Source of the DNA: Dyadobacter luticola
GTDB lineage: Bacteria; Bacteroidota; Bacteroidia; Cytophagales; Spirosomataceae
DNA: 64,000 nucleotides
Assembly (NCBI RefSeq): GCF_005860805.1
Contig: NZ_VCEJ01000005.1
Span: 62,001 to 126,000, forward strand
Direction of reading: 5' to 3'
Positions 34,949-36,625 of this stretch are shown one piece after another (within the stretch, counting starts at the first letter, position 1; each line of letters starts with the position of its first letter). Under the pieces are notes generated by a model that saw only the letters and a list, made by a program, of their open reading frames with translations, searched no databases and was not told the DNA's origin. A program made the position numbers and the translations under genes.

Positions 34949-35209
34949 AGGTTTAGGATTTTGATTTTTATTAGGAGTTAAGCGGATTCTGCTGAGTAAG
35001 TGCGTGCTAAAATAGTACAAATCCGTTTTTGCCACATGCTTTGCAAATCGGAAGAACCATAGAATTGGTAACGCACCCGGTCGCAAAACAATTATATAAA
35101 AGTATGAAAAAATCGAGATTAGAGATATAAAATGTGGCTTCCCTAAGTGCGTATAACGAAGCTGGAAGCTAAATGCGTTTTGTATATTTGTCTACCAAAA
35201 GTGGACCAT

Positions 35210-35422
35210 ATGAAAAACAAGCGAATACAGTTTTATAGTTCTTTTGAAGAAATGAACAGAGACGAGATTCAAAGGAATATCAATATGTCTTTGCAGGAGC
35301 GTTGGGAGACTTTCTGGAAGCTTAAGAAATTTTATAAGGAATTTTTTGGCAGACCTGAAAATGAGGTGTCTGAGGAACCGCGTAAAAAACGAATTATCAT
35401 TTTGAAGCCAGAATGGATTTAG
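35210..35422 (+). CDS. Small helical protein, partner of a broken nucleotidyltransferase
   Basis: A 70-residue charged protein starting MKNKRIQFYSSFEEMNRDEI. The start at 35210 is preferred over an upstream in-frame one at 35147 because relatives begin with this sequence. It is basic and helical (QERWETFWKLKKFYKEFFG) with a strand-like end (KKRIIILKPEWI). Proteins of this kind precede a nucleotidyltransferase-fold gene in Bacteroidota, and the next frame overlaps its stop by 10 bases, exactly as in such pairs. Because the partner is broken here, this gene is probably a relic. The pair resembles a toxin-antitoxin or MNT-like module, but that role is inference. Confidence 0.65.
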   Translation: MKNKRIQFYSSFEEMNRDEIQRNINMSLQERWETFWKLKKFYKEFFGRPENEVSEEPRKKRIIILKPEWI

Positions 35423-35557
35423 AGAATCAGGATTTTCTCGATTTTGTCAGAGCAGCCAGAGAAATTGAAAATTTTAGCACGGCGTCCAAAAGATCTGCGT
35501 GATGTCGTACTCATTGATGAAATTTTAGAAGAATTATCCAGGAAAAATAACGAGTAA
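35413..35557 (+). pseudogene. Nucleotidyltransferase-fold gene with internal deletion
   Basis: The ATG at 35413 opens MDLENQDFLDFV, the usual N-terminus of small nucleotidyltransferase-fold proteins in Bacteroidota, but the frame stops after 29 codons. In another frame, from about 35446, the DNA encodes SEQPEKLKILARRPKDLRDV followed by a helical tail to the stop at 35555-35557, which reads like the C-terminus of the same family (the RPKDLxDV block). The catalytic middle, with the GGxAxxxHG-type and DxD-type motifs, is absent. The simplest reading is a deletion that joined about 11 N-terminal codons out of frame to about 32 C-terminal codons. Confidence 0.65.
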
Positions 35558-35593: not shown

Positions 35594-36625
35594 ATGTACA
35601 AAATCCTGATCTCACCTTTACTCTTCCTGTTTGATGCCGAGCGGATCCACTATTTTGTGGCGGAGGTATTGCACATTGCGTTCAAAATCCCCTTTCTTCC
35701 CAACATTCTTAAAAGTATCTACACATTCGAGCACCCCGATCTGGTGCAGGAAGTGGCTGGATTGAAATTCAGAAATCCGGTAGGACTTGCTGCGGGTTTT
35801 GATAAGAATGCGGAAATGGTAGACCAGCTCGAAGCGCTGGGTTTCGGATTTATTGAGATTGGTACCGTGACGCCGCGGCCGCAGCCGGGCAATGATAAGC
35901 CCCGACTTTTCAGGTTGAAAAAGGATAAAGCCCTGATCAACAGGATGGGCTTTAATAACAAAGGCGCTGGCGTAGCAGCCGGGAAGCTTTCAAAACGGAA
36001 ATCAAAAATTCTGGTCGGCGGTAATATTGGGAAAAATAAGGATACCCCAAATGAAAATGCACTGGACGATTACCTGATCTGTTTCCGGGAGTTATTTGAC
36101 GTCGTCGATTATTTTGTCGTCAATGTAAGCTCGCCAAATACGCCTGGTTTGCGCGATTTGCAGGAAAAAGGGCCGCTTACTGCGTTACTCCGCGAATTGC
36201 AGAAAAAGAATCAGGAAAAAATTAATCCAAAACCCATATTTTTAAAGATTGCGCCTGATTTGACTTGGAGCCAGCTGGACGATATCATTGATATTGTAAA
36301 ACAAACAGGTATCGCTGGCGTTATCGCAACGAACACAACCATAAGCCGGGAAAACCTGAAAACGGACCGGGCGGAAGTAGAGAAACTGGGTGCAGGCGGT
36401 CTCAGCGGAGCCCCGCTCACGCACCGGTCAACGGAAGTAATTCGTTACCTTTGCGATCAATCCAATCATGCTTTTCCAGTCATCGGTGTAGGCGGTATCT
36501 CCTCACCGGGTGACGCTTTGGAAAAAATCAAAGCCGGTGCCGGACTTGTCCAGGTTTATACCAGCTTCATTTATGAAGGACCCGGATTGGCCAGCCGGAT
36601 TTGTAAGGCGCTGGTTAATAAATAG
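35594..36625 (+). CDS. pyrD: Dihydroorotate dehydrogenase (quinone), class 2
   Basis: Oxidises dihydroorotate to orotate in pyrimidine synthesis, passing electrons to membrane quinone. The N-terminal membrane-binding extension ([23 protein letters not shown]) identifies class 2. FMN-site and catalytic segments are visible: [57 protein letters not shown] with the catalytic serine, [19 protein letters not shown] and [16 protein letters not shown]. Length is 343 residues. It lies 40 bases upstream of ftsK and may share its transcript. Confidence 0.96.

Follow-up and report, generated by a model that had tools for sequence, protein, structure and literature searches.

The window, i.e. the whole stretch of 64,000 nucleotides that was analysed, carries on its forward strand a small intact gene followed by the two ends of a nucleotidyltransferase (NTase) gene that has lost its middle part (Table 1). 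The NTase start codon at 35413 opens a frame of 29 codons, which is closed by a stop at 35500-35502. About 15-17 N-terminal NTase codons are left, followed in another frame by a tail of 30 codons at 35465-35554 (LKILARRPKDLRDVVLIDEILEELSRKNNE). This genuine tail begins at the TTG at 35465, and its stop ends at 35557. It retains the conserved K and the RRPKDLxDV motif and matches residues 122-161 of an intact NTase query with an E-value of 2.2e-5. Compared to the intact copy in genome G035, codons ~18-130 are lost, which amounts to a net loss of ~338 bases (hand count) that is not a multiple of three. The missing codons span the GG motif, both aspartates of the T-x-D-x-D motif and D91. The ORF downstream of the remnant is, judging from its sequence, presumably pyrD.

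Table 1. Features of the locus, with positions in the window
Feature	Position	Strand	Remarks
Intact partner gene, 70 aa, putative antitoxin	35210..35422	+	ATG 35210, stop 35420-35422
Putative promoter element TATATTTG, match to TAnnTTTG	35183..35190	+	at -27 from the partner start
10-base overlap of partner stop and NTase start	35413..35422	+	kept in intact unfused congeneric pairs
NTase N-terminal remnant, codons 1-15, MDLENQDFLDFVRAA	35413..35457	+	comparison with intact congeners
Deletion junction, AGAGAA plus one A	35458..35464	+	compared with both sides of the intact congeneric gene
NTase C-terminal remnant, different frame, 30 codons plus stop	35465..35557	+	NTase search and conserved residues
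pyrD, dihydroorotate dehydrogenase, syntenic anchor	35594..36625	+	present in 48/48 genus genomes, own included

An earlier note on this DNA had read the locus as the fossil of a two-gene module, in which an internally deleted NTase stands behind a partner that keeps its frame and the 10-base overlap. All of this is borne out, as the partner ORF runs past the NTase start codon and congeners carry intact partner-NTase pairs at the equivalent syntenic site 5' of pyrD, of which the unfused ones retain the same overlap. In these relatives, the two peptides of the window are the ends of one ~160-aa NTase and not separate short proteins, the alternative that the note itself had raised. The N-terminal start and the C-terminal block in another frame were also recognised correctly, except that SEQPEK does not belong to this block. 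These residues are N-terminal coding DNA read out of frame and precede the genuine tail, and the junction therefore has to be moved from around 35446 to 35458-35464, as the alignment of both ends to congeners indicates. The origin of the junction bases is ambiguous, since AGAGAA is compatible with either side (...A-x-E or ...L-R-E). A short microhomology at this junction is therefore possible, if unproven.

A short intergenic stretch (35087-35209) that holds TATATTTG lies between the partner and a divergent minus-strand neighbour, which by eye was named a large outer-membrane-type gene. TAnnTTTG is the consensus of the -7 element of Bacteroidota promoters. It was found within 70 bases upstream in 16 of 61 partners, compared to 5.5 % of shuffled upstream sequences, and is absent in the other 45. 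With such an element 27 bases before its start, the orphan partner may therefore still be transcribed.

Intact relatives at the site 5' of pyrD

The comparison with an intact copy elsewhere in the genome, as proposed in the earlier note, gave no result, and relatives supplied the intact copies instead. In the window's own genome (G000, 6.4 Mb, 14 contigs), neither the DNA search nor the partner search detected another copy of this subfamily, and the locus alone was above E 0.01. The NTase search of this genome returned the remnant plus two distant NTases with 33 % and 28 % identity, and nothing else. The genome also contains a distant intact two-gene module (L167:879-1606), in which an NTase ORF directly follows a small ORF that carries a TPQER motif.

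The genus sample comprised 48 genomes including the window's own, and 4.5 kb 5' of pyrD were taken from each, or less in G045 and G016 at contig ends. These flanks were surveyed with tblastn over all 48 genomes, and the frames near pyrD were then read by eye. The partner as query gave matches in 16 of the 48 genomes, the window's own included, and the module or its remains were seen by eye 5' of pyrD in 34. In intact pairs, the partner has a length of 63-72 aa and the NTase of ~160 aa. In G011, G026 and G037 (L084, L094, L090), a single ORF of 228-232 codons runs through partner and NTase, which suggests a physical association of the two proteins. Two subfamilies of the module occur at the pyrD site within one well-supported pyrD clade.

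With the intact G035 NTase as the single query, no match was found in phages, and four distant plasmid records matched, all with less than 60 % identity. The partner search of genome contigs yielded one distant Ruminococcus locus (L019), among whose ORFs no NTase was seen by eye.

Nature of the NTase and its partner

The residues G26, G27, T39, D41, D43, D91, K132 and D148 are invariant in all 36 aligned intact NTases. A MenT1-type active-site pattern (GG...T-x-D-x-D, later K and D) is present in each of these 36 relatives, and its core is deleted in the window copy. For MenT1 itself, PMC10435456 gives T39, D41, K137 and D152 as active-site residues. In a search of PDB sequences with the NTase profile A4, MenT1 (8an4) was the sole significant match (E 5.8e-4, the next at 0.15), with an alignment that spans profile positions 21-118 and superimposes the T-x-D-x-D stretches. 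The deep joint alignment of partner and NTase (A6) looked misaligned and was left unused, and the 34-row alignment A3 was taken instead. A predicted model of a fused protein, of middling quality (pLDDT 74.6), resembled TM1012 (Z 6.5), MenT1 (Z 6.3; 120 residues, 4.0 A) and ANT(2'') (Z 5.8). As nearest folds, these three are tied, each with a Z below 8, and the modelled similarity is supportive at most.

The partner is less easily placed. In the 57-row alignment A5, I6, R31 and W69 are nearly invariant, and the predicted model shows a pair of helices with extended termini (pLDDT 78.9, pTM 0.45). Annotation by Pfam, NCBIfam, PADLOC, PDB sequence search and Foldseek gave nothing usable and no known antitoxin homologue. 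A BRCT match with an E-value of 0.01 did not reach its cut-off and was regarded as a chance hit. The partner showed no sequence match to MenA1 at E 10, and Foldseek returned nothing for the partner model. Short length and helical structure are common to the partner and MenA1.

Among known systems, MenAT1 (Rv0078B-Rv0078A) is the closest in layout. In systems of this kind, the NTase is toxic through the addition of nucleotides to tRNA, and the antitoxin blocks it through induced phosphorylation at T39. According to PMC10435456, MenA1 is a 68-aa inhibitor encoded upstream of MenT1, and PMC11375011 states that it induces auto-phosphorylation at T39 of MenT1. The module described here likewise places a small putative antitoxin gene before a small NTase, which shares with MenT1 the T39-x-D41-x-D43 stretch, a K and a D further on, and a similar predicted fold. 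It differs from MenAT1 in that no match of its partner to MenA1 was detected in sequence or fold, the genes overlap and natural fusions occur; moreover, the window copy is dead. AbiE type IV systems (AbiEi/AbiEii) are similar in that one of four intact congeneric NTases passes the Pfam AbiEii cut-off, with a match covering positions 14-73 of 238, and PADLOC AbiEii matched weakly in one of two intact proteins (best E 0.0015). In contrast to AbiEi, the partner has only 70 aa and matched no AbiEi-type winged-helix model in Pfam, NCBIfam or PADLOC. Two of the same four NTases exceed the cut-off of DUF6036, a Pfam family without assigned function, with partial matches, so that three of four pass one or the other. 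HEPN-MNT modules also consist of two genes with a minimal NTase, but the partner here has no HEPN match in Pfam at E 10, and it is the partner and not the NTase that is left behind.

Order of gene loss in the family

The family sample comprised 222 genomes including the genus, with a threshold of E 1e-6 for the NTase profile. The partner profile matched 71 genomes and the NTase profile 125, distant NTases among them. All 44 NTase matches above 170 bits have an adjoining partner match, as found by reading the two lists against each other. A total of 72 loci were classified by hand, with the states assigned by eye. G168 and G205, where a gene is cut by a contig end, and the chance match G096 were dropped before the counts. 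G014 with a divergent partner, G004, in which only the final ~20 codons of the NTase are shifted, and G032b with a partner two residues short were counted as partner-only. The partner tree and the pN/pS sets leave out G032 and the broken partners.

Both genes are intact at 36 of the 72 loci. An intact partner stands beside a broken or missing NTase at 27 loci, 14 of them in the genus, including G000, and 13 outside. The reverse state, an intact NTase behind a partner whose start is out of frame, was found once (G032), and both genes are broken at eight loci (G033, G018, G133, G163, G170, G107, G215, G184). The out-of-frame start in G032 (L112:2932) lies in an A-rich stretch, where an assembly error or slippage is possible. 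While the single fossil in the window is minor, its family makes a clear comparative case, with 63 classified loci that retain the partner, among which 27 have a broken or missing NTase.

Among the loci with a single broken gene, the NTase is the broken one in 27 of 28, compared to 70 % expected by gene length (binomial 7e-4), and in 25 of 26 once two shared losses are merged (binomial 1.3e-3), where the binomial is a guide only since the loci are related. If the five ambiguous loci with both genes broken (G033, G018, G107, G215, G184) are counted as partner-first, the NTase comes first in 27 of 33 and the skew loses its significance (p 0.10). On the partner tree, which is a guide only since it was built on 67 columns, the partner-only state requires at least 22 changes, nine of them forced by well-supported branches, and it is not clustered. 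The NTase losses are scattered and apparently mostly young.

Explanations for the orphan partners

The best explanation, which we consider probable, is a MenAT1-like toxin-antitoxin module whose NTase toxin was repeatedly inactivated first, leaving orphan putative antitoxins. The site 5' of pyrD would have held such a module, with the upstream partner as antitoxin and the overlapping minimal NTase of ~160 aa as toxin. The NTase would probably add nucleotides to RNA or tRNA ends and thereby stop growth, and the partner would bind it and keep it inactive. In G000, the internal deletion of ~338 bases with its frameshift would have removed the catalytic core and orphaned the partner. Losing the NTase would be harmless and losing the partner first harmful, so that the NTase would break first. 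We infer the toxicity of the NTase, the antitoxin role of the partner and the tRNA target, and likewise that NTase-first loss prevails since partner-first loss is harmful. Many NTase breaks beside intact partners are what is expected of an enzyme that does harm when its partner is missing.

A less likely alternative is the neutral decay of an accessory, non-toxic two-gene module, in which the NTase is hit first as the longer gene and the partner survives as the loss is recent. The broken NTases show no relaxed constraint, with a median pN/pS of 0.18 in the 11 broken loci that offer 60 or more comparable codons versus 0.17 in 24 intact comparisons, and for this reason most losses seem recent, as neutral decay would have it. 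The partner is, if anything, looser in the same 11 loci (median 0.30 versus 0.23, p 0.10), which speaks against special selection on partners. Both remnants in the window also retain conserved residues, and in the clade of G160, G166, G163 and G170 the orphan partners are breaking as well. However, youth and gene length together predict ~30 % partner-first cases among the single hits and only one in 28 was observed. Translational coupling alone would still leave visible loci with a broken partner and an intact NTase. Relaxed constraint in broken NTases had itself been tried as proof that partners outlive them and was rejected: the one-sided test gave p 0.99, and the ratio of NTase to partner pN/pS in the 11 broken loci deviates in the opposite direction, being lower (two-sided p 0.014). 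As the broken NTases lack relaxed constraint, the idea that orphan partners are maintained as a rule was dropped. The useful conclusion from young losses is the order, as they show which gene breaks first.

A toxin that breaks first is compatible with a further, unlikely explanation, namely that the orphan partner serves an independent function, such as regulation or immunity against NTase toxins that arrive on mobile elements, and that selection retains it. Whether the partner is selected or decaying had been asked in the earlier note, and the answer is partial. The window partner keeps 13 of the 15 residues conserved in type-A paired partners, as paired ones do. Since both partner and tail keep conserved residues, the loss in the window looks recent, and it is too recent to judge selection on this orphan. 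Across the family, orphan and paired partners are equal in median pN/pS against the nearest paired relative (0.20 at 27 loci and 0.22 at 36, p 0.51), as a function of their own would predict, but with recent losses this comparison says little about selection on orphans.

Two cases of shared loss go further and point in different directions. The orphans of G030b and G038b, which share a junction as read, differ at 27 of 34 synonymous and 13 of 166 nonsynonymous sites, and this apparently older orphan looks constrained. Its descent is not simple because the synonymous divergence of 0.79 exceeds the 0.39 of pyrD. The orphans of G160 and G166, which have a common loss, differ by three nonsynonymous and two synonymous changes and are thus near neutral, and the partners of their relatives G163 and G170 are broken. 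In this clade, the partner looks as if it is decaying. Orphans are also broken in G033, G018 and G133, which speaks against retention by selection.

The positions of the deletions can be read in favour of a retained partner, as the 5' end lies within the first 25 NTase codons, short of the partner, in 14 of the 16 core-deleted loci that could be placed by eye. At the other end, four separate deletions in G000, G003, G009 and G018 have their 3' ends within about six codons of NDLRE, with no cause found. The start of the NTase (MDLEN) resembles this 3' region. Microhomology as a general cause of the recurrent deletions was rejected, since the junctions that can be read against close relatives, those of G003 and G009, share only 0-1 bases by eye. 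In G009 (L082:1128-1433), the partner continues in frame into the NTase tail after a similar deletion, and this 102-aa ORF is possibly a new protein born from the loss of the NTase. In G139 and G140 (L146, L152), the NTase deletions seem to reach the downstream gene, whose frame comes after the first NTase codons.

That the remnant still yields a product, either a short tail peptide or a partner-tail fusion as in G009, would fit these neighbouring 3' ends and the open tail frames in G000, G003 and G018, but it is very improbable. The deletion has taken the catalytic core, a deletion that is recent can be expected to leave a short frame open, and the G000 tail could start only at the TTG at 35444, upstream of the junction, or at 35465.

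Orphan antitoxins are a known phenomenon. Antitoxin genes without a toxin are reported to be abundant in Klebsiella (PMC7192599) and in E. coli (PMC10790755), where many orphan toxins were reported as well. In contrast to the orphans described there, which belong to other families, those described here still have remnants of the broken putative toxin gene next to them. A literature search limited to PMC, which is not proof of absence, found no paper describing a MenAT1-like module with this type of partner.

A broader reading of the MenAT1-like explanation can be put forward tentatively. The loci may belong to a hitherto undescribed NTase toxin-antitoxin family in Bacteroidota that turns over quickly. 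Its antitoxin would be of a new type, and breakage would nearly always begin with the toxin gene. The scattered young losses in this family would then be a natural experiment that reveals the toxin gene without an assay, and the leftover partners would confer a standing immunity should the toxin re-enter a site at which related modules take each other's place. The family offers a sequence-only hint as to which gene is toxin and which antitoxin, its partners are candidates for a new antitoxin family beside MenT-like NTases, and the three natural fusions are useful for structural work.

The chromosomal site 5' of pyrD is a place where small toxin-antitoxin-like modules come and go. It also carries RelE-like/RelB-like pairs in several congeners and RelB-like genes alone in G001 and G030 (L089, L085, L106, L108, L110, L125; L105, L119). 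For three of these proteins, from G012 and G005, Pfam gave weak matches that stayed below the cut-offs, and the rest were assigned by likeness.
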